Below, piece after piece: positions 15,688-33,773 of a DNA stretch of 43,882 nucleotides (the stretch's first letter is position 1; every line of letters begins with the position of its first letter). The notes under the pieces are model-generated. The model saw only the letters and a list, made by a program, of their open reading frames with translations, had not been told where the DNA came from and did not search any database. Position numbers and translations under genes: made by a program. Source of the stretch: a virus; IMG/VR virus record IMGVR_UViG_3300018080_000050, positions 1-43,882 of that record. The stretch is one strand, 5' to 3'.

Positions 15688-16203
15688 ATGAAGGATTATA
15701 AAATATTGAGTAGGTTTAATGAGCTCGATGAATCAAAGGCTATGTTATTAGATGGTGAAGTTATTTTTGTTATTTCGGAAACCGGAAAAAAGAAAATTGT
15801 AAGGCTGAATGGCGGAAACGTTAAAGTAGGTGATATAATCTCTGAGGATGATTTTATAGAGATTAAATATAGCCCGGTTTCAATAACCGATAAAAAAACC
15901 ATAGAAATATCTAAAAAAACCGGCACTCATCCGGAATTAATAAAAGCTATGTCTCAATTACCTGTAGATATATTAGAAATGATTGTAGAAGCATATAAAA
16001 AGGAAAAAGAGGCTAAAATGTATGCCGCATTACAAAAAAGTAATTTTCGTGTAGGAGAGAAAACAATATATAAAACTCTTACTTCTTATGGTTATTCTAT
16101 GAACGAGCTTCATCAAATTCATATTAAACTTGGTGATATAGGAGATTTGGCTGAGTATGTAGTTTCTAATCCTAAACAAAAAGGAATGGAGGATTTTTTT
16201 TAA
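15688..16203 (+). CDS. Unknown protein with C-terminal PIP box, 171 aa
   Basis: The N-terminal half (~1-75) is a beta-rich region; residues ~80-160 are helical (TGTHPELIKAMSQLPVDILEMIVEAYKK, then a possible winged-helix region with FRVGEKTIYKTLTSYG). The last eight residues are QKGMEDFF, a near-canonical PCNA-interacting peptide (Q-x-x-hydrophobic-x-x-F-F) placed at the very C-terminus. It should therefore ride on the viral clamp encoded at 25488. The catalytic role is unknown; no known active-site motif seen. Its stop overlaps the next start (TAATG). Confidence 0.7.
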   Translation: MKDYKILSRFNELDESKAMLLDGEVIFVISETGKKKIVRLNGGNVKVGDIISEDDFIEIKYSPVSITDKKTIEISKKTGTHPELIKAMSQLPVDILEMIVEAYKKEKEAKMYAALQKSNFRVGEKTIYKTLTSYGYSMNELHQIHIKLGDIGDLAEYVVSNPKQKGMEDFF

Positions 16204-16967
16204 TGCCAGATAAGTTTAAGATAAATAATAAGGAGTTAAACGTAACGCAGTTAAGAATAGATGATAATATAAGACCTGGTGATTTAATGTATGCCGTTGA
16301 TCCATTATCGTCTCCGAAAATGATTATTCCAACTAAATCTATGAGAACTTGGGAAGTTAAGTTTATAGTATTATCTGAAAACCTTGAACAATTTAAATTA
16401 GATATGGTAGCAGGAAATAAGTTAAATTTGGAGTTTGCTGACGGCGATTATAAGATTTCGAGTAAGGTAATCCTTAAGTCGTTAGATGTAGAAGTAAATA
16501 CGGATCATCCTAACCTTTGGGAAGGAAATGCCATATTTGAGGAAATAGAGGGTACATTTGAGAGGCCAAAAACTACAACAGAGAAGTATTTTGAGGAGCA
16601 GCAGATTCCGATGTCAGATGAAATGAAAGAAGCTATTGAAAAAGCCAAAGATGCCGGAATGAATATTCAAGAGTTTATAACACTCTGGAATAAAACGCAT
16701 CCTAAAAAAGAAATCGAAGATGTTGTAAAAACATCAACATTATCTCATAAATGCCCATACTGCTCCGCAATTCAATCTCCTAAGATTTTAAATGACGGGG
16801 TTAAAGATTTTTATCAGTGTAGTTTATGTAGAAGTCAATACACGAAAGTTAATGTAGATATAGCAGATCATTTGGATTCATTCGTATGGCAACAAGAAAT
16901 ACTACAGAATCTCGTTTCTAAAAAAAAAAGAATAGAAAGAATGTTTAGACATGAATCAGGCCCCTAA
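16203..16967 (+). CDS. Tail-like domain fused to a zinc ribbon, 254 aa
   Basis: Residues ~1-125 are beta-rich and end with a phrase (LWEGNAIFEEIEG) closely resembling the C-terminus of the distal-tail-like protein at 37060-37557 (VWEGNIVFEEV). Residues ~130-175 are helical. Residues ~180-215 form a four-Cys ribbon (CPYC...CSLC), followed by a basic helical tail. A structural-protein-like fold inside the early operon is odd; it may be a co-opted beta domain. Start at 16203 overlaps the upstream stop (TAATG). Function unknown. Confidence 0.6.
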   Translation: MPDKFKINNKELNVTQLRIDDNIRPGDLMYAVDPLSSPKMIIPTKSMRTWEVKFIVLSENLEQFKLDMVAGNKLNLEFADGDYKISSKVILKSLDVEVNTDHPNLWEGNAIFEEIEGTFERPKTTTEKYFEEQQIPMSDEMKEAIEKAKDAGMNIQEFITLWNKTHPKKEIEDVVKTSTLSHKCPYCSAIQSPKILNDGVKDFYQCSLCRSQYTKVNVDIADHLDSFVWQQEILQNLVSKKKRIERMFRHESGP

Positions 16968-17142
16968 ATGTGATCATACTAAAAAAAGGAAAATAAAAGG
17001 AAAAATGAGGACTATAACTAATTATAGACAGCTACCTGATGGTAATTTACAATGTAGGTCTTGTGGTTATATAATTAAGCAATTGAGTAAAAAAGAAAGG
17101 AGAAAAATAATAAGTGATATATATGATGTTTCAAAAATCTAA
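16951..17142 (+). CDS. Small basic zinc-ribbon protein, 63 aa
   Basis: MNQAPKCDHTKKRKIKG with a Cys-x-His pair near the N-terminus and CRSC at ~35-38, within a Lys/Arg-rich protein. A single zinc site of the C-x-H/C-x-x-C type is plausible. It overlaps the preceding gene by 17 bases and the next by 20. Probably nucleic-acid-binding; no family recognised. Confidence 0.5.
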   Translation: MNQAPKCDHTKKRKIKGKMRTITNYRQLPDGNLQCRSCGYIIKQLSKKERRKIISDIYDVSKI

Positions 17143-17275
17143 AAATAAAGAAATAATGTACGAATGTGTGACGTGTAAGAATAAGTTTAATATATTAGAA
17201 TTAACCAACCATAAGAACGGATTTAAGACTTGTCCAGTATGTGCTGGCATCCGTTTTTATATATTAGATGAATAA
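17123..17275 (+). CDS. Zinc-ribbon micro-protein, 50 aa
   Basis: MMFQKSKNKEIMYECVTC, then CPVC near residue 37-40 and the end GIRFYILDE: two CxxC knuckles spaced ~20 residues apart, a rubredoxin/ribbon-type zinc site. It overlaps the end of the upstream gene and stops two bases before the methyltransferase start. Confidence 0.55.
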   Translation: MMFQKSKNKEIMYECVTCKNKFNILELTNHKNGFKTCPVCAGIRFYILDE

Positions 17276-17277
17276 AG

Positions 17278-18222
17278 ATGAAACAATTAACTTGTGGAAT
17301 ATTCCATAGCTTTGCTGGACATTGGCAGCTTATAGCTGAGGAATTAGGATTAAAGACGGCCTGGTATTACGAAAACTTTAAGAAGGAAAGACAAATACTC
17401 GAACATAACAGACCGGATGTTTATATTATAGAAAATTCAGATCAAATTAAAAAGGAAGTAGATATTATAATGGGATCACCTCCATGTGTTGGAATGAGCC
17501 AAGCTAATCCTAAAGCATGCTGCGAACATCCAGCCAATGAGGAAATGAGGATATTTGCTCAAAAAGTAAGAGAATTAAAGCCTGAGTATTTTTTCATGGA
17601 AATGGTTCCTACACTGCTTCAAGACAGATTTAAACCTATTTATCAAGAATTGATGGATAATTTTAATCGAAATCATAAAACGGTTGTAAAGACTTTCGAT
17701 TTTAAGGATTATGGCACTCCTCAAGCCAGAGAGCGAGTCCTGATTTATGGATGCCGAAGTAAATACCTCCTTTTTCCTAAACCGACCGGAACTTCTACTA
17801 TACGTGATGCTCTGGATGGCCTGAAAAATTATAGTAAGGAGGAAGCTATAAGTTTAAACATAGCTGTAGAAATGAAACCTCATTGGAAAGGCCCCTACAG
17901 CATGTTTGTTAATAACCCGGAGTATTTCAACTTGGAGTGGGATGGAGTGAGTAAAGTAATCACAGCGTTAGGCTCGGGTTATTTAAGACACCCAGATGGA
18001 CATAGGAGGATAACGTATAGAGAAGCTGCCAGATTTATGGAATTTCCGGATGACTATGACTTCTCAATTCATGCTCTAAGCCAAATATTTAGAGATATAG
18101 GCTGGGGAGTGCCTATTTTAGGAATGGCAAGAATTTTAAGGAAATTATTAGATTTTAATGGAAAAAATGATGGCTCGTATGAGCGATTATATATTAAAAA
18201 AAGTATGGAGGAGTTTTTCTAA
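17278..18222 (+). CDS. C5-cytosine DNA methyltransferase with C-terminal PIP-like peptide, 314 aa
   Basis: Transfers a methyl group from SAM to cytosine C5. Seen: motif I IFHSFAGHWQ (8-17), motif IV GSPPCVGMSQ with catalytic C70, motif VI FMEMVP (E108; the usual ENV is EMV), motif VIII TPQARERV (Q149/R151/R153) and a C-terminal motif X region (IGWGVPILGMARIL). The length is near the minimum for the family, so the target-recognition region is short. The last residues are KKSMEEFF, matching the PIP boxes of neighbouring genes apart from Lys in place of Gln. This recalls DNMT1, which uses a PIP box to follow replication forks. Could protect viral DNA from restriction; the target sequence cannot be read. 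Confidence 0.85.
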   Translation: MKQLTCGIFHSFAGHWQLIAEELGLKTAWYYENFKKERQILEHNRPDVYIIENSDQIKKEVDIIMGSPPCVGMSQANPKACCEHPANEEMRIFAQKVRELKPEYFFMEMVPTLLQDRFKPIYQELMDNFNRNHKTVVKTFDFKDYGTPQARERVLIYGCRSKYLLFPKPTGTSTIRDALDGLKNYSKEEAISLNIAVEMKPHWKGPYSMFVNNPEYFNLEWDGVSKVITALGSGYLRHPDGHRRITYREAARFMEFPDDYDFSIHALSQIFRDIGWGVPILGMARILRKLLDFNGKNDGSYERLYIKKSMEEFF

Positions 18223-18395
18223 TGGATGTATGGATTGTACTGAACGAGAGTGATACGATCATCAAAATAGGAGGACAATCAGAATGTCATAAATATAAGA
18301 ACGATTGTGATGATAAACATCCCTCGGGTAAGTATAGACTAAGAAAACTTAAAGAAGGAATGAGAATTGTTAATGCCAAGAAATATCATAGCTAA
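18222..18395 (+). CDS. Hypothetical protein, 57 aa
   Basis: MDVWIVLNESDTIIKIGG followed by ECHKYKNDCDDKHPSGKY: a short beta-like start, two Cys and two His in the middle (a possible metal site), and a basic end. Its ATG overlaps the methyltransferase stop (TAATG). Resembles the small domain-like proteins common in viral early regions; function unknown. Confidence 0.5.
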   Translation: MDVWIVLNESDTIIKIGGQSECHKYKNDCDDKHPSGKYRLRKLKEGMRIVNAKKYHS

Positions 18396-18403
18396 TAGCG
18401 AAA

Positions 18404-18482
18404 TGGTATATCATAACCAAACAGGACTCCAGGAAGTGGTATATCATAATGCGGAAAAAAGAATGGGAGTGGTATATCATAA
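18404..18482 (+). repeat. Three copies of a 13-bp motif at exact 33-bp spacing
   Basis: TGGTATATCATAA occurs at 18404-18416, 18437-18449 and 18470-18482, each 33 bases from the last (about three helical turns). The 20-base intervals differ. A short frame (18403-18495, 30 codons) reads the repeats as VVYHN phrases but lacks a ribosome site. The regular spacing on one DNA face suggests cooperative protein binding. Confidence 0.75.
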
Positions 18483-18631
18483 CAGAAATCTATAATGTAT
18501 GTCCCTTATGTGGTAATTCGCTTACTTATATAGGAGATATATATTATAAATGTAAAAATTGTGGAGCGAACTTTATGAAAAGCGATTTAGAGCTACCTGA
18601 TAAGCAGCAGAGTATGGAGGATTTTTTCTAA
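18449..18631 (+). CDS. Zinc-ribbon protein with C-terminal PIP box, 60 aa
   Basis: MRKKEWEWYIITEIYNVC, a CPLC...CKNC zinc ribbon (residues ~18-38), and the C-terminal peptide QQSMEDFF (53-60), a textbook PIP box. In effect it is a zinc ribbon attached to a clamp-binding tail; it could recruit a DNA or protein target to PCNA, or compete with host clamp clients. Its ATG lies inside the second 13-bp repeat, and AGGAAG upstream is a modest site. The stop overlaps the next start (TAATG). Confidence 0.65.
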   Translation: MRKKEWEWYIITEIYNVCPLCGNSLTYIGDIYYKCKNCGANFMKSDLELPDKQQSMEDFF

Positions 18632-18819
18632 TGTATTATTTTAAGAACGATAAGGGTCGGGATCCGTTTACGACCGGAAAAGAGGCCATGAAAGACGTAG
18701 GCCAAATTGTAGATGATATGATGAAGTTTGAGAAGGAGTTTGCTTCGGTTTTATATTTTGAGAAAGATAAATTTAAAAACGAATTTGATCGGAGGAAAAA
18801 GAAGGTTAAACCAACATAA
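18631..18819 (+). CDS. Hypothetical helical protein, 62 aa
   Basis: Acidic/basic helical protein (KEAMKDVGQIVDDMMKFEKEF) with a Lys-rich C-terminus. Start coupled to the previous gene by TAATG. No domain recognised. It ends just before a strong stem-loop. Confidence 0.5.
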   Translation: MYYFKNDKGRDPFTTGKEAMKDVGQIVDDMMKFEKEFASVLYFEKDKFKNEFDRRKKKVKPT

Positions 18820-18828
18820 CGCTTATTC

Positions 18829-18896
18829 GGCTCCTATTGGGTTTTATATGATCCCCTCAATCATTCCGTTAATCACCTGGTTTCCCAATAGGAGCC
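18829..18896 (+). promoter_or_regulatory. Stem-loop A before the uracil-DNA glycosylase gene
   Basis: A perfect 13-bp stem (GGCTCCTATTGGG 18829-18841 with CCCAATAGGAGCC 18884-18896) encloses a 42-base loop. The loop contains AATCACCT (18871-18878), the complement of an AGGTGATT-type ribosome binding site. It is followed by ACCTTATAAAAG and the start at 18919. Related structures precede 30130 and 32072 (shared G-[TC/CC]-CACCT-A/T-rich ending). Could be an mRNA processing or translation-control element, or an internal terminator/promoter junction. Confidence 0.6.
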
Positions 18897-18918
18897 ACCT
18901 TATAAAAGAGATGATAAT

Positions 18919-19458
18919 ATGTTAAGAGATAAAAAAGACGATCCTAATAAAAGGATATGGCTATGTCCAGCTCATGAGAACTGTAGGAAATGTAAATTAA
19001 ATTTAAGACTTAAACCACAAAGACCTTACGGCACATTAAATACAAATATTATGTTTATAGGTGAATCTCCTGGAAAAGAGATCGATCAGGACCATAACTA
19101 TGCCTGGGCTTGTGGTTCAGGATTTTATTTTAAAAAGTTCTTAGAAATGTTCGGTTTCAATAGAGATGAGGTATATATGACAAATTTAGTTAAATGCTTC
19201 AATCCTGGTACAACTGAGGAGCAAATAGACAATTGTAGAGATTTTTTAGAGCTGGAATTAATATTAATAGAACCGAAGGTTATTGTATGTACAAGTCTTA
19301 TAGCCTTTAATAATTTACCAAATATACCTCAGGTTAAACATGCTAAGGTGATGAGAATATGGCATCCATCTTATGCTCAAAGACCTGGAAATGAGGAGAA
19401 ATGGAAAGAACAATGGAAAGAGGTGAGGAGAGTGTATGATAATAGGATGGCTATGTAA
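18919..19458 (+). CDS. Uracil-DNA glycosylase, family 4/5 type (Fe-S), 179 aa
   Basis: Removes uracil from DNA. Seen: Cys pair C22/C25 (NCRKCKL), motif A FIGESPGKEID (46-56), GSGFYFKKFL (67-75), MTNLVKC with C93, C106 (NCRDF), the strand IEPKVIVC and the terminal WHPSYAQRP motif (H149). The four Cys fit the 4Fe-4S ligands of family 4/5 enzymes. Length is typical. Preceded by stem-loop A; overlaps the glycosyltransferase by 23 bases. In a virus with an altered pyrimidine pool it would clean up uracil in DNA. No PIP-like C-terminus is seen. Confidence 0.85.
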   Translation: MLRDKKDDPNKRIWLCPAHENCRKCKLNLRLKPQRPYGTLNTNIMFIGESPGKEIDQDHNYAWACGSGFYFKKFLEMFGFNRDEVYMTNLVKCFNPGTTEEQIDNCRDFLELELILIEPKVIVCTSLIAFNNLPNIPQVKHAKVMRIWHPSYAQRPGNEEKWKEQWKEVRRVYDNRMAM

Positions 19459-20560
19459 AGGATATACTCATTTAAACGTTAAGTCTGTAGATGGCATGCT
19501 CAATATACGGGTGCCTTTATTAAATATGTTATTAAAAAAGCATAATATTATATGGCTCGGCCATCAGAGGCCGAAAAGACTACTTAATGATAATATGTTC
19601 TATAAACCGATTGTAAAGGAGTATTTAGATGCGTATAAAAGATTTGAAAAGAGTTATATAGGTGAAAAGAAAGTAGCGACATTCTTTACTTCATTTCGAC
19701 CTCAAGAATTTCCTGAATTAGATATTTTACTTGTAGAGATCAGCAGAATACATGTATATGCTCCGTTGTTTGCTTCGGTTATAGATTATTATAATAATTA
19801 TACTAAGACTAAAATAATCCTTTGGGACACAGATCGATGGCTAAACGACTTTGCTCACTGGCTTCGACCCTTTCCAAATTCAGATTTAACTGACTTTAAA
19901 ATATTCGCACCCTATAAAGGCAATAAGGAATATGCGCCATATCTCGGTCCAGAATGGTACAATATGGCACCATTCCCTTACGACCGGACAAAAGAGCTTG
20001 AAATTACTACGAAACCTTACGATCTATGCTATATAGGAAACGATTATAGGAGAAGGCCAAAAATGGAAAAGTATTATAATTTTCCTTTTGCTGACGTATA
20101 TGGTAAATATGATGATGATGAGTGGAAAGCGACTATGAAATGTAATTTTAGGGGCCGAACTAAACCAGATGAAGTGAGAGAAATATATAATCAGTATTCG
20201 TTTTGTGTTCAAATAGTTAAAAAGGATTACGAAAAGTTCGGCCTAATGACTCCTCGGATTAACGAAGTGCTTGAAGCCGGGACGCTAATTTTAGTAGATG
20301 GGGATATCATAACAGCCAGTTTATTTGTAGATGAGGAGTATATAGTTCATGATACTGAGGATGTGTTGAAATGGAAAGAAAGATTAGATAAAATGACAAG
20401 TGAGGAATATAAGAAAAGAGTTATGAGCCAGAGGAAAAAAGTAGCCTCATTTTGTAGCTATGATTCACTACTCAGTATATTTTCATTAGATCAAGGTCAT
20501 GAGCTTGTTAAAGGAAATATCAAGCTTGGACAACAGAAGTCAATGACTGACTTCTTTTAA
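19436..20560 (+). CDS. GT-B glycosyltransferase (CgeB-like) with C-terminal PIP box, 374 aa
   Basis: Predicted to move a sugar from a nucleotide-sugar donor. The N-terminus IGWLCKGYTHLNVKSVDG and WLGHQRP resembles the first Rossmann domain of GT-B enzymes; the C-terminal domain has YDLCYIGNDYRRRP, the repeated-strand region, and PRINEVLEAGTLILVDGD (E277), the donor-binding signature of CgeB/GT1-type enzymes. The protein ends QQKSMTDFF, with a clean PIP box (QKSMTDFF, 367-374). A clamp-binding glycosyltransferase most simply acts on DNA, as T4 alpha/beta-glucosyltransferases do. GAGGTGA lies 8 bases before the ATG. The acceptor is inferred, not shown. Confidence 0.75.
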   Translation: MIIGWLCKGYTHLNVKSVDGMLNIRVPLLNMLLKKHNIIWLGHQRPKRLLNDNMFYKPIVKEYLDAYKRFEKSYIGEKKVATFFTSFRPQEFPELDILLVEISRIHVYAPLFASVIDYYNNYTKTKIILWDTDRWLNDFAHWLRPFPNSDLTDFKIFAPYKGNKEYAPYLGPEWYNMAPFPYDRTKELEITTKPYDLCYIGNDYRRRPKMEKYYNFPFADVYGKYDDDEWKATMKCNFRGRTKPDEVREIYNQYSFCVQIVKKDYEKFGLMTPRINEVLEAGTLILVDGDIITASLFVDEEYIVHDTEDVLKWKERLDKMTSEEYKKRVMSQRKKVASFCSYDSLLSIFSLDQGHELVKGNIKLGQQKSMTDFF

Positions 20561-20589
20561 AAACACAAACAAAAGGTGATAAAAAAATT

Positions 20590-21657
20590 TTGAATGTTAT
20601 CGTTACCGGCGCAGCCGGTTTGGTAGGATCTCACGCAGCTGAGTTTTACGCTAAGGATCCTAATAACTCCGTGTATGCTATCGATAACTTATCCAGAGCA
20701 AAACTGATGGATAAAGAAATCCTTTATGCGAAATATAATTGGGATTATCTCGAGAGGATATATTCCAATATAAAATTCTATAAGAAGGATGTAGTATATG
20801 ATTCGGAGTTTGTCGAGAATCTAATAAATCAATGTGAGCCAGACATTATTATACATGCTGCTGGTCAGCCGGGAGTTCCCACTTCCATAGATCGGCCATA
20901 TTATGACTTTTCGAATAATGTTATTGGTACATTTAATATGTTAGAGGCTGTAAGAAAAAGTCCGTTTAACCCTGCCTTTATATTTACCTCAACTAATAAA
21001 GTGTTCGGTGAAAACGTCAATCTCTTACCAATAGAAAAGAAGGATACCCGATATATATTTAACTTCACTAATAGATTTGGAGTTAATGAGGAGTTATCGA
21101 CTGGTTTGACTAAACACACTCCTTATGGAGCATCCAAATTATGTGCTGATACCTATTGTCAAGAATATGGAAAGATGTATGGCATGAGAACTGGAATATT
21201 TAGAATGAGCTGTATATACGGCATTCGGCAATTAGGAGTAGAGGAGCAAGGATGGGTAGCTCATTTCGTCCTTTCTATGGTTAATGACAGGACTATTAAT
21301 ATATTCGGAGATGGCTTACAAGTAAGAGATATGCTTTACGTAACTGATTTAATAAACGCAATGGATAAATATGCCGAAAAATCAAGACGGTATAAAGGAG
21401 AAGTGTTTTGTATTGGTGGAGGTCCAAAGAATACAATTTCTTTAGTCGAATGTATAGAATTATTAGAACAGTTGCTTAATAAGAAGGCGAAGCTCAAATT
21501 TCACGACTGGAGGACGAGCGATCAGCAAGTATATATTTCAGATATTAAAAAAGCGAGAGAATTGCTTGGCTGGGAGCCTAAAGTAAGCCCAAAGGTTGGA
21601 GTAGGTAGTTTAGTTAATTGGGTATTAGATAATAAGGAGGCGTTAAGAAATGGTTAG
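20590..21657 (+). CDS. NDP-sugar epimerase, CDP-paratose 2-epimerase-like, 355 aa
   Basis: Extended short-chain dehydrogenase acting on a nucleotide-activated sugar. Seen: NAD-binding VTGAAGLVGSH (5-15), DNLSRAKLM, HAAGQPGVPTSIDRP, the TSTNKVFG stretch, the catalytic Y-x-x-x-K in TPYGASK, RMSCIYGIRQLGVEEQGW and GDGLQVRDMLYV. The STNKVFG, CIYG.RQ.GVE.QGW and GDG.QVRD strings are characteristic of CDP-paratose/tyvelose 2-epimerases. It starts at TTG (20590) with GGTGAT ten bases before; no in-frame ATG fits. Immediately follows the glycosyltransferase, so it likely supplies its donor. Confidence 0.85.
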   Translation: MNVIVTGAAGLVGSHAAEFYAKDPNNSVYAIDNLSRAKLMDKEILYAKYNWDYLERIYSNIKFYKKDVVYDSEFVENLINQCEPDIIIHAAGQPGVPTSIDRPYYDFSNNVIGTFNMLEAVRKSPFNPAFIFTSTNKVFGENVNLLPIEKKDTRYIFNFTNRFGVNEELSTGLTKHTPYGASKLCADTYCQEYGKMYGMRTGIFRMSCIYGIRQLGVEEQGWVAHFVLSMVNDRTINIFGDGLQVRDMLYVTDLINAMDKYAEKSRRYKGEVFCIGGGPKNTISLVECIELLEQLLNKKAKLKFHDWRTSDQQVYISDIKKARELLGWEPKVSPKVGVGSLVNWVLDNKEALRNG

Positions 21658-22108
21658 CGAAAAGGATATGCAGTTTATCTGGGTAATACTCGATGAGCTA
21701 ATAGAAAAAGGATTAATAAAGGAGAACTATGTTAAACGACTGGAAAATATAAAGCATAATCTTAATATCGAAAGAAAGGATATGCTGGAAAGTATATTTG
21801 AGCAGCAGATAAACCTACAAATTAAATGCGGACATGAAGTAGAATTGCTTGAGGGCAACCAGCCTTATATAACTGTAATGACAGTCGCTCTAATAGATGA
21901 GGCTATGGAGGCCTTAAGAGAAACACCATGGAAACCCTGGAAAAAACAACAGCAGTTTAATAAAGAAAAAATGCAGGAGGAGCTTGTCGATTTATTACAT
22001 TTTTTCGTAAATTTATGTTTGGCATCAGGTATGGACGCAAAAAAGCTATTCGAAGTCTATACTTATAAAAATGCTATAAATCATCAAAGACAAGAGGATG
22101 GTTATTAA
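21650..22108 (+). CDS. All-alpha NTP pyrophosphatase (dimeric dUTPase/dCTPase-like), 152 aa
   Basis: Hydrolyses a pyrimidine dNTP to dNMP and pyrophosphate. Metal-binding acids are in ALIDEAMEAL (E84, E87) and QEELVDLLHF (E110, E111, D114). The WKPWKK stretch (94-99) and C-terminal YKNAINHQRQEDGY match the dimeric dUTPase branch (dUTPase_2), to which phage T4 dCTPase-dUTPase is also related. In this gene set it may remove dUTP and/or dCTP, feeding dCMP/dUMP to the ThyA-like enzyme. Overlaps the epimerase end by 8 bases with AAGGAGG before the start. Confidence 0.75.
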   Translation: MVSEKDMQFIWVILDELIEKGLIKENYVKRLENIKHNLNIERKDMLESIFEQQINLQIKCGHEVELLEGNQPYITVMTVALIDEAMEALRETPWKPWKKQQQFNKEKMQEELVDLLHFFVNLCLASGMDAKKLFEVYTYKNAINHQRQEDGY

Positions 22109-22110
22109 AT

Positions 22111-22623
22111 ATGCCGAATATTACACCATCTCAAGCTACTGCTCGTTCAGCCAGAAAAAGGAGAGTTAATAAAAACAAACCATTAATCGAATTCACTATT
22201 AAATGGTTATGGGAACATCTTGGAAAAAGATTTAAAATGGATGAAATCGTGTGGTTTTACAGAAAATCGCTTGGCTGGTTAAACAAAAAACTTACTCCGG
22301 ATGATAAGAAAGTATTATTTAACTTTAAACGTACAATGTCATCCTGTTTTTCTCTTTTAGTGTCCAATGGGTATTTTAAAAAGGATACGAAATATAAATC
22401 TAAGGCTACATATTATGTAGCATCATTAGATATGGTAAATGGCCTTAGGGATATGTTAGCTCTAAAGAGATTTAAAGACTTTACAAAAGGAAAGCGTGGA
22501 AAAAATTTAATAGGAGGACCGATACCTGAAGCATTTGGAATGTACTTTATAGAGCCAAGCGGCATAGTTGATAAAAAATTTAGAGAATTATGGGAGGCGA
22601 GTAGATTATTACCTTCAACATAA
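22111..22623 (+). CDS. Hypothetical basic protein, possible winged helix, 170 aa
   Basis: Very basic N-terminus (TARSARKRRVNKNK). The middle region IEFTIKWLWEHLG, FKMDEIVWFYR and SLLVSNGYFKKDTKYKSKATYYVA looks like a winged-helix fold ending in a beta wing, suggesting DNA binding. The C-terminal third (RGKNLIGGPIPEAFGMYF) is unrecognised. Sits between two nucleotide-metabolism genes and overlaps the AUU-started kinase gene by 19 bases. Confidence 0.5.
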   Translation: MPNITPSQATARSARKRRVNKNKPLIEFTIKWLWEHLGKRFKMDEIVWFYRKSLGWLNKKLTPDDKKVLFNFKRTMSSCFSLLVSNGYFKKDTKYKSKATYYVASLDMVNGLRDMLALKRFKDFTKGKRGKNLIGGPIPEAFGMYFIEPSGIVDKKFRELWEASRLLPST

Positions 22624-23138
22624 TCTTAGAAGGATGCGACTGTGTAGGTAAAAGTAGTATATATCAAATCCTACTTTCAAGAGGAGAAGTGGTTGTAGGA
22701 TCTCATTTTGGTGCTCCAAAAAATAAAGCAGAAGGAAAAAGAGATTACACCAGCACTATGAAATTCTTAAATAATCAAACCGGCATAATATTTGACAGAT
22801 GGGCTTTAGGTGAGCGAGTATATGGTCCGCTATTTAGAAAATATTATCCTGACTATATGGATAAAATTGAGAATGAACTGAAGGATCATAATTACCTATT
22901 TTTAATAACGGCATCAGTTAAAGTAGTTAGAAAACGCATATTAGAAAGCAGACATCAGGGAAAGGAGAATAAATACATAGAAACGATATTAAAGAGCTTC
23001 GAAAGAGAATTTAAGAAATCTAAATATCCAAATAAGTTTATAATAGACACGACTAATATTACACCAGACGAAGCTGCCGACCAAATAATTGAGTTTATTA
23101 GAAAAGATTGTGTATCAAAAGGGAGGTCGATGTATTGA
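22605..23138 (+). CDS. Deoxynucleoside monophosphate kinase (thymidylate-kinase-like), apparent AUU start, 177 aa
   Basis: P-loop kinase. The frame contains LEGCDCVGKSS, a Walker A of the thymidylate kinase type, only ~9-16 codons after an in-frame TAG at 22602. Between that TAG and the P-loop there is no ATG, GTG or TTG. ATT at 22605 (and 22608) is preceded by GGGAGG with ~7-base spacing, so AUU initiation is the best reading. A GTG at 22689 would delete the P-loop. Further motifs: FDRWALGERVYG (DR of the dNMP site) and ITASVKVVRKRILESR (lid region). Likely phosphorylates a (modified) dNMP made by the next enzyme, as T4 gene 1 does. Ends TGATG, coupled to the ThyA-like gene. Confidence 0.75.
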   Translation: MITFNIILEGCDCVGKSSIYQILLSRGEVVVGSHFGAPKNKAEGKRDYTSTMKFLNNQTGIIFDRWALGERVYGPLFRKYYPDYMDKIENELKDHNYLFLITASVKVVRKRILESRHQGKENKYIETILKSFEREFKKSKYPNKFIIDTTNITPDEAADQIIEFIRKDCVSKGRSMY

Positions 23139-23848
23139 TGGTTATCGTAATAGAAGCAGAAACAGCAGATGAACTTTTTATTAAAGTGGCTAAAGCTATG
23201 ATCGAAAAAGGAGAAAGAAGGTTTGTCAGAGGTCTTGAAACAATAGAGCTTGCTGATGCTTGGATGGTATTAAATAATCCATTAGACTGTGTAGTTAATT
23301 TAGCAGAAAGAAATATTAGTGCGGATTATCTGAAAGGAGAGTTAAACTGGTATAATTCTGGGAGCCTTAAAGTAGATGATATTGCTAAATACTCTAAATT
23401 TTGGCTTAATTTAGCCGATTCTAATGGTACGGTTAATTCTAACTACGGATTTTTAACTAAAGTTGAAAAGTGGAGTGGTATAAGTCAGTTCGAGTGGTGT
23501 ATTAATAGACTTAAAAAAGATAAATATACAAGGCAGGCAATTATGAATTATAACCAGCCAAGACATAAATATGCCGAAGTTAAAGATTTTGTATGTACAA
23601 TTAGCCAACAGTTTATAGTGAGAGAGGAGAAGCTGGACAGTATAGTTTTAATGAGGTCTAATGATTTAATCTATGGGCTAACATATGACATAGTATGGTT
23701 CTGTAATCTATTAGATGAAATAGCTGATATTCTGGAATTACCAATCGGTAAATACATTCATTACGACACTTCTATACACGTTTACGAAAGGCACTTTGAA
23801 ATGTTAAATAATATGGCTAATGCTAACTACGAAATATGTAGTAAGTAA
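23138..23848 (+). CDS. ThyA-family dCMP (hydroxy)methylase, 236 aa
   Basis: Folate-dependent C5 alkylation of a dNMP. Seen: GELNWYNSGS (E68, as E58 of E. coli ThyA), FWLNLADSNGTVNSNYG (89-104), catalytic Cys153 in DFVCTISQQF, the phosphate-binding RSND (173-176), then YGLTYDIVWF, where D184 replaces the Asn that reads uracil in thymidylate synthases (LGLPFNIASY), and the conserved H214/Y216. Asn-to-Asp at that position is the known switch toward dCMP, present in T4-type dCMP hydroxymethylases. So hm-dCMP (or m-dCMP) synthesis is predicted. The start at 23138 has GGGAGG at good spacing. Whether the product is hydroxymethyl or methyl cannot be read. Confidence 0.78.
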   Translation: MVIVIEAETADELFIKVAKAMIEKGERRFVRGLETIELADAWMVLNNPLDCVVNLAERNISADYLKGELNWYNSGSLKVDDIAKYSKFWLNLADSNGTVNSNYGFLTKVEKWSGISQFEWCINRLKKDKYTRQAIMNYNQPRHKYAEVKDFVCTISQQFIVREEKLDSIVLMRSNDLIYGLTYDIVWFCNLLDEIADILELPIGKYIHYDTSIHVYERHFEMLNNMANANYEICSK

Positions 23849-23870
23849 AAATTCTAAAGGAGGTGAAAAA

Positions 23871-24257
23871 ATGAAAGATATAATGCCAAAAAATGCTTGT
23901 AGAGAAGTTGCGTACATACCTAATGAGTTAGTAAAATTTTTAGACGCAGCCACTACCGAGGATCTCGAGGATATGATAAATGATTTTATTATGACCGAGA
24001 AAGTATGGATTAAAGAAATACGACCAGTTGCTTATACTGGCACATCATGTGCGAAAGATGTTAATAGTGAAGCAGTAAAATGGGATTACTTCACACGGTT
24101 CGGTGTCATTATTAGATATGAGCCAAGAGCTGGACAGGAGAATTTTATTGAACCAGGTTGTAAATTATGCGGTGCTAAAGAATCTGAAAGACATGGTAGA
24201 TGGATCGACGACCAGTTCTATTGTATGGAGTGTATTCGTGAGAAACTTAATTCCTAA
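23871..24257 (+). CDS. Hypothetical protein with C-terminal zinc ribbon, 128 aa
   Basis: Starts after a near-perfect AAAGGAGGTGAAAAA site. The body (IPNELVKFLDAATTEDLEDM) is helical, then beta; residues ~100-123 form CKLCGAKESERHGRW...CMEC, a four-Cys ribbon. Last gene of this operon; an intrinsic terminator overlaps its stop. No family recognised. Confidence 0.6.
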   Translation: MKDIMPKNACREVAYIPNELVKFLDAATTEDLEDMINDFIMTEKVWIKEIRPVAYTGTSCAKDVNSEAVKWDYFTRFGVIIRYEPRAGQENFIEPGCKLCGAKESERHGRWIDDQFYCMECIREKLNS

Positions 24258-24305
24258 TGAAAGTAGAATTAGGAGATATATTCTAACTTTTTTTTATTTT
24301 TTATT
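24253..24305 (+). terminator. Hairpin plus poly-T terminator
   Basis: TCCTAAT (24253-24259) pairs with ATTAGGA (24269-24275), followed within 15 bases by a run of T (24289 on) and a second T-rich stretch. It overlaps the stop codon of the zinc-ribbon gene. Confidence 0.65.
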
Positions 24306-24499
24306 CTATAAGCCTTAATTCAATAATTATAAGGTGCAACTTGCGCAGATGGCCCGACACACAAATTATTGTGGTTTAATATAGCTTGAATGCGATAAAA
24401 GTGTGATTTGTTAAGAAAAAATATATACTATTATCTCCTTTTGTATAAGGTTGTTAGCTGATATAAAGATTTATAAATTATTATATACTCTTATATATT
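24306..24499 (+). promoter_or_regulatory. Intergenic region with promoter of the nuclease-PCNA operon
   Basis: No gene is seen. CCTTAATTCA (24312-24321) is shared with the next major intergenic region (around 28601), and here it forms part of a weak hairpin with AATTATAAGG. A small inverted repeat CACAA/TTGTG follows. TTTATAAATTATTATA at about 24469-24484 lies some 20-30 bases before the ATG at 24500, where no Shine-Dalgarno site exists, so the transcript is probably leaderless. The middle portion (GCAACTTGCGCAGATGG) is more GC-rich than its surroundings and may be a structured RNA or operator. Confidence 0.5.
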
Positions 24500-25237
24500 A
24501 TGAAGGAACCCTTTAAAGTTATAAAAAGGAGTGAGCGTAGCGAGGTACCTTCGTTTTCGGCATCAAGAATCGGTTCGGAGTATTGGTCCTTTTTTTTAGA
24601 CTTGACTGATCCTGAACCTATAACCGATGAACTCAATGAAATCTTTGACGCCGGGAATGTCGTTCATCATTATGATGAAATATACTCCGAAGGAGGACGT
24701 GGAATAGTAAGCTGTGAAAGTTATATAAAAGCAATCCACGAAAGTGAAAAATTCTGTATTTCAGGACTACACGACTATATTAAATTAGATCGAAACGGGT
24801 TATATATCGAAGACCTGAAATCAACTATTCCAGGAGGCCTCTATTGGTTTTTTAAAAAAGGAGTTGATGATGGATATAAGCTACAGCTGTCGGTTTATGC
24901 GTACCTATATTACCTGAAGCATGGTGTATGGATTGATACGGGAGTCATTACTAAGATTAATAAGGAGAATACAAGAGATCGAATATCCTTAAGTGCCAAA
25001 TTATTTCCATTGGAGTATATTCGTGACGTAATAGTTAATCATCCAGTAATGAAAACCATTTCAGGAGAAATGACCGAAAAAGAACTTCTGAGTGTTGCTT
25101 ATGCCAAATTAAAAGAAATTGATCCAGAATGGGCAAAAGGTAATAGAAAAGAAGCATGGGTATGTAAAAACTGTCAATATAAAGGTAGATGCGAACTACT
25201 TTTATATATCGAAGAATTGGATGAACATATAATATAA
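24500..25237 (+). CDS. Cas4/RecB-like PD-(D/E)XK nuclease, 245 aa
   Basis: DNA exonuclease of the PD-(D/E)XK superfamily. Seen: GNVVHHYDEI (His of motif I), FCISGLHDYI (Asp of motif II), LYIEDLKST (E-x-K motif III), YKLQLSVYAYLYY (Q-x-x-x-Y motif) and a C-terminal CKNCQYKGRC, the Cys cluster of Cas4-type Fe-S nucleases; a matching N-terminal Cys is less clear. No CRISPR array or other Cas gene is present, so it is a viral end-processing or recombination nuclease. First gene of the operon that includes PCNA. Confidence 0.75.
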   Translation: MKEPFKVIKRSERSEVPSFSASRIGSEYWSFFLDLTDPEPITDELNEIFDAGNVVHHYDEIYSEGGRGIVSCESYIKAIHESEKFCISGLHDYIKLDRNGLYIEDLKSTIPGGLYWFFKKGVDDGYKLQLSVYAYLYYLKHGVWIDTGVITKINKENTRDRISLSAKLFPLEYIRDVIVNHPVMKTISGEMTEKELLSVAYAKLKEIDPEWAKGNRKEAWVCKNCQYKGRCELLLYIEELDEHII

Positions 25238-25252
25238 AATAGGTGAATTAAA

Positions 25253-25483
25253 ATAGTAAAAAAATATAAAGAACCCAGCAGAACTTTTCAAATAGAAAAG
25301 TATGGATCATCAGCTGTTATTGTACTTGATAGGACTATAAGAACCTTATTAGGTATAAGCTGGGAGGATATTGAGGAGCATAGGATTGGAATAAGAGCTG
25401 AGAATATACAGGCTGTTCATTTAAATCCTACTGATGATCCCGCGCAGAAAAAAATAGATGATTTTACCAAACCGGAGGAATAG
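25253..25483 (+). CDS. Unknown protein with PIP-like motif, apparent AUA start, 76 aa
   Basis: Open from an in-frame TGA at 25244 to TAG at 25481, but with no ATG, GTG or TTG near the beginning. ATA at 25253 follows AGGTGA by six bases and would start VKKYKEPSRTFQIEK. The protein has a beta-like middle (SAVIVLDRTIRTLLG) and ends QKKIDDFTKPEE, a degenerate PIP box (second aromatic replaced by Thr). Lies directly before the PCNA gene. The start codon is inferred. Confidence 0.5.
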   Translation: MVKKYKEPSRTFQIEKYGSSAVIVLDRTIRTLLGISWEDIEEHRIGIRAENIQAVHLNPTDDPAQKKIDDFTKPEE

Positions 25484-25487
25484 TAAA

Positions 25488-26540
25488 ATGGCAAAGAAAA
25501 CAAAACCTAAGGAAACAAAATCACCAGCTCCAGTTAAGAAAAAAAAGGAGACTAAGCCTAAAGAGAAGCCGAAAGTTATTTGTCCTTTTTGTGGAGGAGA
25601 GTATGCTTCCGAAACAAGTATGAAGAAGCATAAATGCTCAGGTCAGTTAAAAAGTGGATTTATGGTTCGATTTAAAGCTACGGCGTATTTCAAAAAAGTT
25701 ATTGAGATTATTAATAAATGGTGTGAGGACGCTAAAATAAGAATTAATAAAGATGCTTTAATAGTAGAATCAACTGATCCCGGAAAGGTTGGATATATCC
25801 AATTTACTACAGAAAGGAGTAAATTTAGTGTCTATAATATAGGTAAGGACGAAACATCAGCTGTCATTAAAGTTCCAGATTTAAAGAACGTAATGGCAAG
25901 AGGAGAAAAGGACGACACTTTAACGCTATTTTACGACACAGATGTTATGAAATTTACAGTCATATTCTCTACTAAAACAGGAAGGAAACGAACCTTTAAA
26001 ATAGGTGTTATGGACGATGATGACTTTCCAGACCTGGAAAATAGTTTTAGTAAGATGAGAGATTATGAGTGGCCGGTATATTTCAACGTGGATCCCGGCA
26101 TATTAGAGCAGATTATTAAGGACGCTAATGTATATGCTGAGATTATAAACTTCGAAACTATAAACGATAATGAGGATATTAATCTATGGACAGTTGGACC
26201 TGGTGGCTCTTACGAATCTGAATTCGGCACAGATGAGATTGTTAATTTAATGATCGATAAGCCATGTAAGAGTATGTGGAGTATAACACATCTACTAAAT
26301 GTTCTTGCTATTAAAATCATGACAAAGGAGCTAACATTCCAAACGGATCATGGCAGACCGGCAATATTAACTTTCGAGTTAAAAAATGGAATGGAAATTA
26401 TGTACGGTCAGGCTCCAAGAGCAGAGCAAGGATATGATGATTACGATGAAGATGTAGATGAAATCGAAGCCGCGGTAGAAAAGAATAAAGAAAATGAAGA
26501 CGAAGAATCAGAAGATGAGGAGGAGTTTGTAGATGAGTAA
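25488..26540 (+). CDS. PCNA-like sliding clamp with N-terminal zinc finger and acidic tail, 350 aa
   Basis: Processivity clamp that encircles DNA and binds PIP-box proteins. Residues 1-30 are a Lys/Pro-rich leader; C32/C35/H48/C50 form a C2HC finger (CPFCGGEY...KKHKC). Residues ~57-313 fit the two-domain PCNA chain: MVRFKATAYFKKVIEIINKW, KFSVYNIGKDETSAVIKVPDL, KIGVMDDDDFPDLE in the interdomain region, and GMEIMYGQAPRA (A309-P-R), the conserved C-terminal APR strand. The last ~35 residues are almost all Asp/Glu. Ordinary archaeal PCNAs are ~245-250 residues without finger or tail. GGAGG lies 10 bases before the ATG at 25488. It would need host RFC for loading. Confidence 0.85.
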   Translation: MAKKTKPKETKSPAPVKKKKETKPKEKPKVICPFCGGEYASETSMKKHKCSGQLKSGFMVRFKATAYFKKVIEIINKWCEDAKIRINKDALIVESTDPGKVGYIQFTTERSKFSVYNIGKDETSAVIKVPDLKNVMARGEKDDTLTLFYDTDVMKFTVIFSTKTGRKRTFKIGVMDDDDFPDLENSFSKMRDYEWPVYFNVDPGILEQIIKDANVYAEIINFETINDNEDINLWTVGPGGSYESEFGTDEIVNLMIDKPCKSMWSITHLLNVLAIKIMTKELTFQTDHGRPAILTFELKNGMEIMYGQAPRAEQGYDDYDEDVDEIEAAVEKNKENEDEESEDEEEFVDE

Positions 26541-26934
26541 AATATGCCCAATGTGTAAAAATGAGAAGGAAGCTGATCAAATAGTCTGCGATAAGTGCTA
26601 CGAAGAATTTAAACAATTAACTGGTTTTTTAAGCAGACCGCCACCCATAATATCTATTGGCAGAATTGGTATGCCGCCACCCTTTTTATGTGATGATTGT
26701 AAAGACACTTCTGACGACAACATATTAAATGAAATCAAAAGACATCGGGATAAATCTGAAAAAGTTATAGACTTATTTCCAGGTCATTTAGAGGACTTTG
26801 GCTTAGGAGATTTATCGGGTATAGCTAAAATATTTTTTAGAGATGGTGTAATGCCACATGAGTTTTTATCGATGGTTATAATAAAGGAACTAAGATTATT
26901 AAAGGAGGAATTAAAAAATGTCACAGGAAAATGA
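26533..26934 (+). CDS. Zinc-binding protein, 133 aa
   Basis: N-terminal CPMC...CDKC (zinc ribbon, ~5-22), a Pro-rich linker (RPPPIISIG, MPPPF) and a second CDDC pair, then a helical C-terminus. Overlaps the PCNA stop and the next start. Possibly a clamp-associated adaptor; function unknown. Confidence 0.55.
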   Translation: MSKICPMCKNEKEADQIVCDKCYEEFKQLTGFLSRPPPIISIGRIGMPPPFLCDDCKDTSDDNILNEIKRHRDKSEKVIDLFPGHLEDFGLGDLSGIAKIFFRDGVMPHEFLSMVIIKELRLLKEELKNVTGK

Positions 26935-27841
26935 TGAAAAAGAAAAAATGATATGTCCTATATGTGGTAAGGAATATACGCTTAAGAGGTATTATGATAA
27001 GCATATAAAAGGACACGAAGAAAAAGACAAAAAGAAAGCAGAGCATAAGGAAAAAATAGAAAAACAGCTAAACGAAAAAGTCAAAGAGGTAAATGAGAAG
27101 CAGAAAGAATACGAAGAAAAGAAAGATAAGCTGTCGCCAAAGGATGATGAATTTTGGATGAGATTCTGGGCGACATTAGAAGGTATATCATCTCAGAACG
27201 CAATGATATTAGGAGCTTTAGAGAATATAGAGAAAAACACTAACATAGAAAAGGAGACTAAGATTAGACTGGAAAGCCTAATAGGACACGCTCTTAAATC
27301 TCTTGATAAAACAAATGAAATTACAGAATTGATTGCTAATACTCCAGCTGTCGTTTTAAAGGATAATCAAGTTGCGGTAATTGATGAAGGAAAGAAAGTA
27401 GAATCGGCCCCTATATCAAAGAAAGCTCAAGAAAGGACTCGAGTAGAGGAGGAAATAATAACAACATCTGATGGAGTACAAATAGAACAGGAGCTAACTC
27501 CAATGCCAGGTTCGAATAATAATGCTTTCGGTAATACCTCGGGAGGATTTACAGATAACGAATTTAAAGAAGTTAAGGAGAAGGCTATTAATAATGCTAA
27601 GAAGGAGATGACAAAGAGCACTCCAGTTAATAACTTCGATGAGGAAAAAGAGTATCAAATAGAGGCGGAGATAAAAGGTTCAACCCAGAAAGCATTACTT
27701 CTAACTTTTAATATAGAAGGACAGCCAGAGTCGTGGGTACCTAAATCCACGGTTAAAAGCAGCTTTAGAGATGAAAAGAACATTAAGCAATACTTCGTAA
27801 TAGATAAATGGATTTTAAAGAAAAACGGAATTATATTTTAG
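26918..27841 (+). CDS. C2H2 zinc-finger protein with coiled coil and C-terminal WVPKS domain, 307 aa
   Basis: Residues 13-33 form a finger (CPICGKEY...HIKGH) akin to those of PCNA and the gene at 33426. Then a Lys/Glu coiled coil (~35-75), a helical region (FWMRFWATLEGISSQNAMIL), a Gly/Asn-rich linker, and a C-terminal small domain (EYQIEAEIKGSTQKALLLTF, WVPKSTVKS, FVIDKWILKKNG) of a type seen at the ends of viral and phage replication accessory proteins. Probably DNA-binding; exact role unknown. Confidence 0.6.
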   Translation: MSQENDEKEKMICPICGKEYTLKRYYDKHIKGHEEKDKKKAEHKEKIEKQLNEKVKEVNEKQKEYEEKKDKLSPKDDEFWMRFWATLEGISSQNAMILGALENIEKNTNIEKETKIRLESLIGHALKSLDKTNEITELIANTPAVVLKDNQVAVIDEGKKVESAPISKKAQERTRVEEEIITTSDGVQIEQELTPMPGSNNNAFGNTSGGFTDNEFKEVKEKAINNAKKEMTKSTPVNNFDEEKEYQIEAEIKGSTQKALLLTFNIEGQPESWVPKSTVKSSFRDEKNIKQYFVIDKWILKKNGIIF

Positions 27842-28755: not shown

Positions 28756-30048
28756 ATGCCAAATAAAAGATATATACAACAGAAAAATGAGTTAGATTAT
28801 ATCAGCTCATTAGTTGCCACTTGGGAAAGTGGTTCGTTAGGAATTTTATTAGAAGGTCCGCCTGGAGTCGGGAAATCCCTCCTGGCAGAGACATTAGCAG
28901 ATGATTATGTAGCTGATATCATGAAAAGATTAAAATGCGGTAAAATCTCAAGGAGTGAGATTCTTTTCGTGATAGATGGTTCAAGAGATTCAGACAGACG
29001 TGATTTTGAGGGGCTACAAACTCTTGACGAAAAAGGTACAGACTTTGAATATGCTCAATTACCTAAAGCGATTATGGCGGCTAACAAATATGGCATCGCC
29101 ATCTTAGTAATTAATGAAATCAACGCCATCTTAGAAAGTGAGCAAATCTCTTTTAACTCACTACTCTCCGAAAACTGTATCAACTTGATTTCGAAGCACG
29201 GAGAACGACATGAGCTAAATGAAGGTGCTAAGTTAGTTGTCATAGGAACTATGAATCCCGGCTTAATGGGAACTGTAGAGCTACAAGATGCTTTCGATGA
29301 CAGATTTGTTCCTACTATTAAAATCAGTTATCCATCAGCTGCCAGGGAATCAAAAATCTTAAGAGACGTAACTGGTGTGTCGAAAGATGTTGCCGATATA
29401 ATCGTTGAGACAGGTAGAGCTTTAAGAGATGGTTGTGTAATAGATATGAATATTCAGAGGATCTTTAGCACCCGAAAAATGGTTAATTTCTGTAAAGTCA
29501 TTAAGAATATGCCAGAAAAGTTTATCGGAACTAATATAGAGAACCTAATCATTAATAGGATCTGCGAGGACAAGAAAGCAGTTAATACGGCTAAAACGGT
29601 TATGATAAACAAGAAATTTGAGGAGAAATTAACCCAAGCAGTTAAAGCTATGAGAAATCCTTCCGAAGTTAAAGTCGAAGCTCCTAAAGTTCAAATCAAA
29701 ACAGGACAAGAAAGTACAGCCATTACTCAAATGAGACAGCTTATTCACTCAAAATATGTGGCCGGAGGAGAAAGTGCGATCTTTAATAGTAAAGGGGAAA
29801 TTAAATGGGGAGTATTAGACGGAATATGGAAAGCTGAGCCTGAAACTATTCAGGAATACTTCAAATTATCAATTCCATTATTCGGAGATTTGTATAGAGA
29901 TCCCGTCACAGGAACTGGGAATGAACCAGAAAAGAATGGAGCAGTCACACGAACTTATATTATATGGCTTAACCGCAAGCATAAGGAGGACTTAATGGAG
30001 TTTATCACGAAAGTGGCTCCTATTATACCTGAGGAACTTTTATCCTAA
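28756..30048 (+). CDS. MoxR/CobS-like AAA+ ATPase, 430 aa
   Basis: Walker A GPPGVGKS (34-41), Walker B ILVINEI (116-122; the usual Asp before Glu is Asn, catalytic E121 kept), sensor 1 GTMNPG (164-169) and the Arg-finger region DAFDDRF (178-184). The C-terminal ~150 residues lack known motifs. MoxR/CobS-type ATPases work with VWA partners to remodel or load metal into targets; the VWA protein follows at 30130. Separately promoted. Confidence 0.8.
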   Translation: MPNKRYIQQKNELDYISSLVATWESGSLGILLEGPPGVGKSLLAETLADDYVADIMKRLKCGKISRSEILFVIDGSRDSDRRDFEGLQTLDEKGTDFEYAQLPKAIMAANKYGIAILVINEINAILESEQISFNSLLSENCINLISKHGERHELNEGAKLVVIGTMNPGLMGTVELQDAFDDRFVPTIKISYPSAARESKILRDVTGVSKDVADIIVETGRALRDGCVIDMNIQRIFSTRKMVNFCKVIKNMPEKFIGTNIENLIINRICEDKKAVNTAKTVMINKKFEEKLTQAVKAMRNPSEVKVEAPKVQIKTGQESTAITQMRQLIHSKYVAGGESAIFNSKGEIKWGVLDGIWKAEPETIQEYFKLSIPLFGDLYRDPVTGTGNEPEKNGAVTRTYIIWLNRKHKEDLMEFITKVAPIIPEELLS

Positions 30049-30094
30049 ATAGGCTATACTCAGTTAGCATGCCTAACTGAGATGGTCACCTATT
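30048..30094 (+). promoter_or_regulatory. Stem-loop B between ATPase and VWA genes
   Basis: Outer pairing AATAGG (30048-30053) with CCTATT (30089-30094); inner perfect 9-bp stem CTCAGTTAG (30059-30067) with CTAACTGAG (30073-30081), 5-base loop. The 3' side reads GGTCACCTATTAAAAA. Same layout as stem-loop C, with different stem sequence but paired bases kept, which points to a functional RNA structure. Confidence 0.65.
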
Positions 30095-30129
30095 AAAAAG
30101 GTAAAAAAAATAAAACCGAGTGATTAAAA

Positions 30130-33173: not shown

Positions 33174-33429
33174 GTTAAAGATTAAGTTCGATCAGTTAGT
33201 TAAACGTCTTGATGAGGATGAATCTAAACAGCATTATGCTATGAGCAGATTAAAAACTATGTACGCCAAAATTGTCATCCGAATTAAAGATTTAATAGAA
33301 GTCTTTATGTCGGGAGATATACATTGGACATGTGGTTTTTGCGAACAAGCTCAGAAGGATATTTTTAAAGAGGTCGAACGCCTCAAAAAGTTAAGAACAC
33401 AGCTTAGAGAGGTGATATTTAAAATATGA
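33157..33429 (+). CDS. Hypothetical helical protein with one CxxC, 90 aa
   Basis: Helix-rich (LKIKFDQLVKRLDEDE, FKEVERLKKLRTQL) with a single CGFC pair and VFMSGDI, which echoes VEMFVSGRI in the protein at 32502; the two may share a domain. ACGGAGG precedes the ATG. Function unknown. Confidence 0.5.
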   Translation: MLSIDELKIKFDQLVKRLDEDESKQHYAMSRLKTMYAKIVIRIKDLIEVFMSGDIHWTCGFCEQAQKDIFKEVERLKKLRTQLREVIFKI

Positions 33430-33773
33430 GTGATGACTTGTTTAATTGGACATCGGGAGAACAGGCCCCTAAAACCAAGCCTAAAAAGGAAAAGAAGCCT
33501 AAAACTAATAAACATCCATGTCCTTATTGTAGTGGAAAATATGTAGATATAAAAGGTCATATAGCTAATCAACATCCAGAAACGCTACCCGGAGGAAAGA
33601 TTAAAGAAAAGGAACCTGAGATAAAAGCTAATCCAGAGAAGGAAAAGCTACAGCAGGAGCTTGTTAAAATGTTCCGTTATGCTATGAATGGCAGAAAGCA
33701 ATATAAAAATCTTGGAGTTAATGATCCGGCAGAATTTGAAGCCTTATTTATATCTACACTATATAAAATATAA
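33426..33773 (+). CDS. C2H2 zinc-finger protein, 115 aa
   Basis: Lys-rich leader then CPYCSGKYVDIKGHIANQH, a classical C2H2 finger of the same kind as in PCNA (25488) and the gene at 26918. The C-terminal half is helical. ATG overlaps the previous stop (ATGA). Probably DNA-binding. Confidence 0.6.
   Translation: MSDDLFNWTSGEQAPKTKPKKEKKPKTNKHPCPYCSGKYVDIKGHIANQHPETLPGGKIKEKEPEIKANPEKEKLQQELVKMFRYAMNGRKQYKNLGVNDPAEFEALFISTLYKI

Follow-up and report, generated by a model that had tools for sequence, protein, structure and literature searches.

Do the near-identical peptides that end four unrelated proteins of one virus work as clamp-binding tags, and what would such tags be for? The question arises from IMG/VR virus record IMGVR_UViG_3300018080_000050, taken over its whole length of 43,882 bases (the window; the features given below in the form start..end lie on the plus strand). 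The four C-terminal octapeptides pointed out in a first-pass annotation are all present, in frame and with the stop codon directly after each: QKGMEDFF (16177-16200) in a protein of 171 residues, here g171; KKSMEEFF (18196-18219) in a C5-methyltransferase; QQSMEDFF (18605-18628) in a zinc-ribbon protein; and QKSMTDFF (20534-20557) in a glycosyltransferase (GT). These tails are very probably genuine PIP boxes, and we consider it reasonably likely that they recruit their proteins for replication-coupled DNA modification.

The source is probably a tailed virus of an archaeal host, and one not seen before. We infer the host domain from the PCNA and the use of PIP boxes, since neither is known from bacteria. 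No relatives were found in IMG/VR with the PCNA, DCM, MoxR-type ATPase, helicase core or portal as queries, nor in phage records by DNA and GT-protein searches. Genome contigs queried with the GT, and two archaeal phyla whose genomes were queried with the GT and the portal, likewise yielded none, in this case without a positive control. Elsewhere in the window, a terminase-like gene (9536-12241) bears a repetitive insert in its middle (SIGHLKQP... variants), and at 28756-31977 the gene of a MoxR-type AAA ATPase precedes that of a protein with a von Willebrand factor A domain.

A shared C-terminal peptide of archaeal clamp-motif form

Among 56 probable genes of the window, the ending [QK]..[MILV]..FF was observed four times against 0.003 expected (P(≥4) = 2.9e-12 from the composition of the proteome, 7e-12 from that of the C-termini); the gene set was compiled by hand, the margin being wide nonetheless, and pure chance is rejected as the origin of the tails. 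The strict motif Q..[MILV]..[FYW][FYW] occurs in three of the 56 genes only, those of g171, the zinc-ribbon protein and the GT, and always at the C-terminus (P(≥3) = 2.8e-9 for the strict Q form). The same three conform strictly to the PIP definition QxxhxxAA. The methyltransferase has K in place of Q at PIP position 1 and falls outside the strict PIP box, so that the Q-x-x-hydrophobic-x-x-F-F motif ascribed to all four proteins holds for three of them. Two weaker versions proposed along with them, ERSVDDLF in the helicase and QKKIDDFT beside the PCNA gene, did not stand up: both are without the aromatic pair, have more residues after the motif and are not significant alone. The frame encoding QKKIDDFT, just upstream of the PCNA gene (about 25253-25483), has a Shine-Dalgarno-like AGGTGA; it contains no ATG, GTG or TTG start and would need ATA or ATT.

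In archaea, C-terminal PIP boxes of the QxxhxxAA type are found in NucS and NreA, and loss of the tail abolishes the repair role of NreA (PMC4929162). When 84,980 prokaryote genomes were scanned for a pattern close to the tail, 31 matches emerged, mostly short frames. Six of these are the same gene, ending in QKTMxDFF, in Nitrosopumilales, another Nitrososphaerota genome and an uncultured archaeon; the one that was compared with Pfam proved to be NreA. Judged by its residues, the viral tail is a real archaeal form of the clamp motif, because NreA in Nitrosopumilales ends in QKTMxDFF. The motif and its extreme C-terminal place are thus those of the NucS and NreA boxes (PMC4929162), and the residues are near-identical to those of NreA, whereas the carriers differ: cellular replication and repair proteins there, and here four unrelated proteins of a single virus, of which two are apparently enzymes that modify DNA.

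The viral PCNA and the question of its use

That the same genome encodes a PCNA was borne out. The protein (25488..26540) matches Pfam PCNA_N (2.4e-7), and its residues 58-311 align with solved PCNA chains from end to end (E 6e-24 for a PCNA with three copies in a single chain, 1e-10 for that of P. furiosus), which by sequence gives the two-domain PCNA fold over its full length; structure prediction without an alignment reached a pLDDT of 36. It further has an acidic C-terminal tail and an N-terminal zinc-finger-like extension (25488-25650) with a C2H2-like finger, CPFCGGEY...KKHKC. Fingers of this kind are also seen in two further genes (26918-27841 and 33426-33773). Compared with the PCNAs of eight other viruses and one Nitrosopumilales PCNA, the PIP pocket appears only partly conserved. 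DPxxV, the PDL of the connecting loop and APR are kept, and changes are seen at the positions of Met40 and Leu47 (human PCNA numbering) and at the residue preceding APR; the connecting loop is longer. In the subset of window proteins that was searched, neither a DNA polymerase nor a clamp loader could be recognised, for which reason the viral PCNA would presumably depend on host enzymes for its loading and use.

The divergent pocket can also be read in another way, namely that the tails, as genuine PIP boxes, would bind mainly the host PCNA and let their carriers enter or disrupt the host replisome, with the viral PCNA as a separate device. An IMG/VR contig of 43 kb fits such use, as it encodes an HNH nuclease (986-1471 of that contig) ending in QKRLDDFF and no PCNA was found on it; nor did this contig show a second convincing tag. 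However, a virus with its own PCNA most simply uses that PCNA, and the pocket landmarks just named are kept, so that we regard a main aim at the host clamp as unlikely. The tails may target the viral PCNA, the host PCNA or both.

The HNH nuclease is one of three other real tagged genes that variant scans of IMG/VR revealed, each on its own contig, the other two encoding a PolB and an AAA-like protein; a 44-residue frame in two contigs, possibly a gene, was also matched. The scan with Met at position 4 returned 20 matches, all of them rejected because the frames were short or lacked support as genes. Nine PCNA-encoding viruses (eight haloarchaeal and one of Methanomicrobiales, with PhiCh1 covered for 50 of 58 kb) yielded no convincing C-terminal PIP gene: strict matches lay in unannotated frames, and annotated genes had loosened forms only, such as HATV-3 gp18 (KEDIIGFFAEE) and an HSTV-1 methyltransferase (DRAVTKWWVFNKP). 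No other multi-tagged genome was seen among the nine PCNA viruses or in the IMG/VR scans, which covered close spellings of the tag and may miss others.

The tagged proteins

The C-terminal ~55 residues of g171 (15688..16203) resemble the DNA-binding domain of DNA ligases. The protein ranks first among 207 open reading frames of the window with a ligase profile from one phylum (E 2.2e-6; next 0.07); a profile comparison with the archaeal ligase DNA-binding domain gave E 6e-4 at a low probability score, and Pfam DNA_ligase_A_N a sub-threshold 0.026. A PDB sequence search returned chance matches only, and structure prediction without an alignment reached a pLDDT of 50. The alignment stops where ligases bear their own PCNA motif, which in P. 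furiosus is the internal QKSFF at residues 103-107 (PMC6212441). Up to the position of this motif g171 aligns with the ligase domain, whereas it ends there, covering part of the DNA-binding domain only, with neither an OB domain nor the adenylation domain with KxDG that would make it a DNA ligase. Because the ligase-like part extends no further than the site of the ligase motif, the tag of g171 was probably inherited from a ligase-type domain rather than newly added. Frames of 208 residues with part of a ligase N-terminal domain were seen in two contigs from an Asgard-centred genome search.

The C5-cytosine DNA methyltransferase (17278..18222; 314 residues) matches Pfam PF00145 (1.4e-31), its conserved C5 motifs align to M.HaeIII, and none of 20 homologues in genomes of one archaeal phylum has such a tail. 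In eukaryotes, a PIP box in the N-terminal part of DNMT1 mediates the recruitment of this enzyme by PCNA. Both are thus C5-cytosine methyltransferases with a clamp-binding motif, but that of DNMT1 is N-terminal, and the virus has an enzyme of the short, prokaryotic kind.

The GT (19436..20560; up to 374 residues) matches Pfam PF13524 (Glyco_trans_1_2; 1.2e-6) and has a local match, confined to its C-terminal half, to phage T4-type beta-glucosyltransferase (E 3e-5). The Pfam T4-Gluco-transf N-terminal domain finds no match in it and does match the enzyme of an Enterococcus phage. Since the window holds a T4-like hydroxymethylcytosine toolkit, the tagged GT is likely a DNA glycosyltransferase. 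The gene before it (18919..19458) encodes a family-4-type uracil-DNA glycosylase without the tail (PF03167, 1.4e-22; NCBIfam UDG family 4).

The fourth tagged protein (18449..18631) has only 60 residues, with CPLCG and CKNCG, weak zinc-ribbon matches below the Pfam cut-offs and no catalytic domain seen by Pfam. Such a small, apparently non-catalytic carrier recalls TIP, a 64-residue archaeal protein that inhibits PCNA (PMC4929162), and the zinc ribbon and g171 might accordingly act as decoys or regulators, sitting on PCNA and keeping host partners off it, the tails of the enzymes being secondary. This would leave the tails on two catalytic enzymes unexplained, and we hold it to be improbable.

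The DNA encoding the tails

Three of the tagged genes, those of g171, the methyltransferase and the zinc ribbon, close with almost the same DNA, ATGGAGGA[T/G]TTTTT[T/C]TAATG, in which TAATG is the stop codon overlapping the start of the next gene. Three of the four tags read ATGGAGGAKTTTTTYTAATG, with GGAGGA preceding that start: at 16188..16193 as the likely Shine-Dalgarno sequence of the gene starting at 16203, at 18207..18212 for that starting at 18222, and at 18616..18621 for that starting at 18631. The tails could on this account be a by-product of translational coupling, in which a Shine-Dalgarno sequence and an overlapping start dictate the last residues upstream. However, the Shine-Dalgarno sequence fixes E and D/E alone, i.e., positions left free in a PIP box, and leaves Q/K, M and FF unconstrained; under this constraint, such a gene end is expected at ~5e-5 per gene. 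Furthermore, the DNA of the GT tag (CAGAAGTCAATGACTGACTTCTTTTAA) contains neither a Shine-Dalgarno sequence nor a gene overlap and uses codons that differ from those of the other three, and the other overlapping genes of the window have different endings. A pure Shine-Dalgarno artefact is therefore rejected, and coupling as the source of the tails is largely refuted and very improbable. For the same reasons, namely the residues left unfixed, the low expectation per gene and the GT tag, the peptide appears to be selected as a peptide, with the DNA of three junctions doing double duty. The suggestion of convergent tagging or tag shuffling is partly right in light of the probable inheritance of the g171 tag, the Shine-Dalgarno junctions of three tags and the deviating codons of the GT.

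A putative hydroxymethyl-dCMP gene set

Downstream of the tagged genes lies a gene (23138..23848) for an enzyme that has the thymidylate synthase fold and resembles dCMP hydroxymethylase. Among solved structures it matches T4 dCMP hydroxymethylase best (5e-28), with thymidylate synthases ranking behind. The catalytic Cys is present, and Asp stands at the position of the thymidylate synthase Asn. This site is Asn in 12 of 12 archaeal thymidylate synthases and Asp in phage enzymes, a distinction that is not absolute, as Asp is also found in a phage enzyme whose annotation is dUMP hydroxymethylase. The neighbouring genes encode a nucleoside-monophosphate-kinase-like protein (22689..23138; phrog_761, 6e-14), an all-alpha NTP pyrophosphatase of the dUTPase_2/MazG type (21650..22108; PF08761, 1.3e-16; phrog_173) and a nucleotide-sugar epimerase/dehydratase (20590..21657; PF01370, 3e-43; phrog_540). 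By these assignments, the set at 20590-23848 resembles the T4 hydroxymethylcytosine route, here in a probable archaeal virus. In an Enterococcus phage, a related hydroxymethylase-like enzyme is encoded near a dUTPase and a beta-glucosyltransferase. A limited search of the open-access literature found no description of a hydroxymethylcytosine route in an archaeal virus, and its occurrence in a probable one would be notable per se.

Proposed clamp-tethered modification of new DNA

We favour, with fair confidence, the explanation that all four tails function as C-terminal PIP boxes, binding PCNA and coupling DNA modification to replication. The virus would make 5-hydroxymethyl-dCMP and incorporate it into its own DNA, and the tails would dock their proteins on PCNA. 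A clamp-bound GT could then add sugar to hydroxymethylcytosine as the new duplex exits the polymerase and a clamp-bound C5-methyltransferase act on its cytosines, so that daughter DNA would be protected during synthesis; g171 and the small zinc-ribbon protein may be accessory clamp binders. The improbability of the tails by chance, the NreA-type peptide, the methyltransferase homologues without the extension and the end of g171 at the ligase motif all argue for this explanation, as do the putative dCMP hydroxymethylase, kinase, pyrophosphatase and sugar enzyme and the likeness of the GT. Against it stand the departures of the viral PCNA from the usual pocket residues, with its longer connecting loop, and the missing Q of the methyltransferase; moreover, complete replacement of cytosine with hydroxymethylcytosine would leave the C5-methyltransferase without a substrate. 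The earlier idea of a suite of proteins tethered to the viral clamp is a plausible one, strengthened by the predicted hydroxymethyl-dCMP toolkit, with the host PCNA as another possible target.

A close analogy is T4 alpha-glucosyltransferase, which co-purifies with the gp45 clamp; its share of glucosylation is set mostly by expression level and not by clamp contact (PMC13216743). By analogy, binding to gp45 lends support to the favoured explanation, and the minor role of this contact in glucosylation speaks against it. The two systems would share a viral GT, a viral clamp and a genome with a hydroxymethyl-dCMP route, the clamp contact being a predicted one here, but gp45 and its binding mode are not PCNA and PIP, the GT families are only distantly alike and the substrate of the present GT is putative (PMC13216743). 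In its most specific form, the proposal is that an archaeal virus glycosylates hydroxymethylcytosine in its DNA, with the GT and the C5-methyltransferase riding PCNA via matching PIP tails in a T4-like replication-coupled system built independently on an archaeal clamp; this we put forward tentatively, as a possibility short of even chances.

Clamp-tethered DNA modification has so far been known piecemeal, from T4 alpha-glucosyltransferase with gp45 and from DNMT1 with PCNA. If the favoured explanation is true, one tail on several unrelated proteins would make clamp tethering a general address label, and a small viral genome with shared tails would offer a simple test of the coupling between viral DNA modification and replication.
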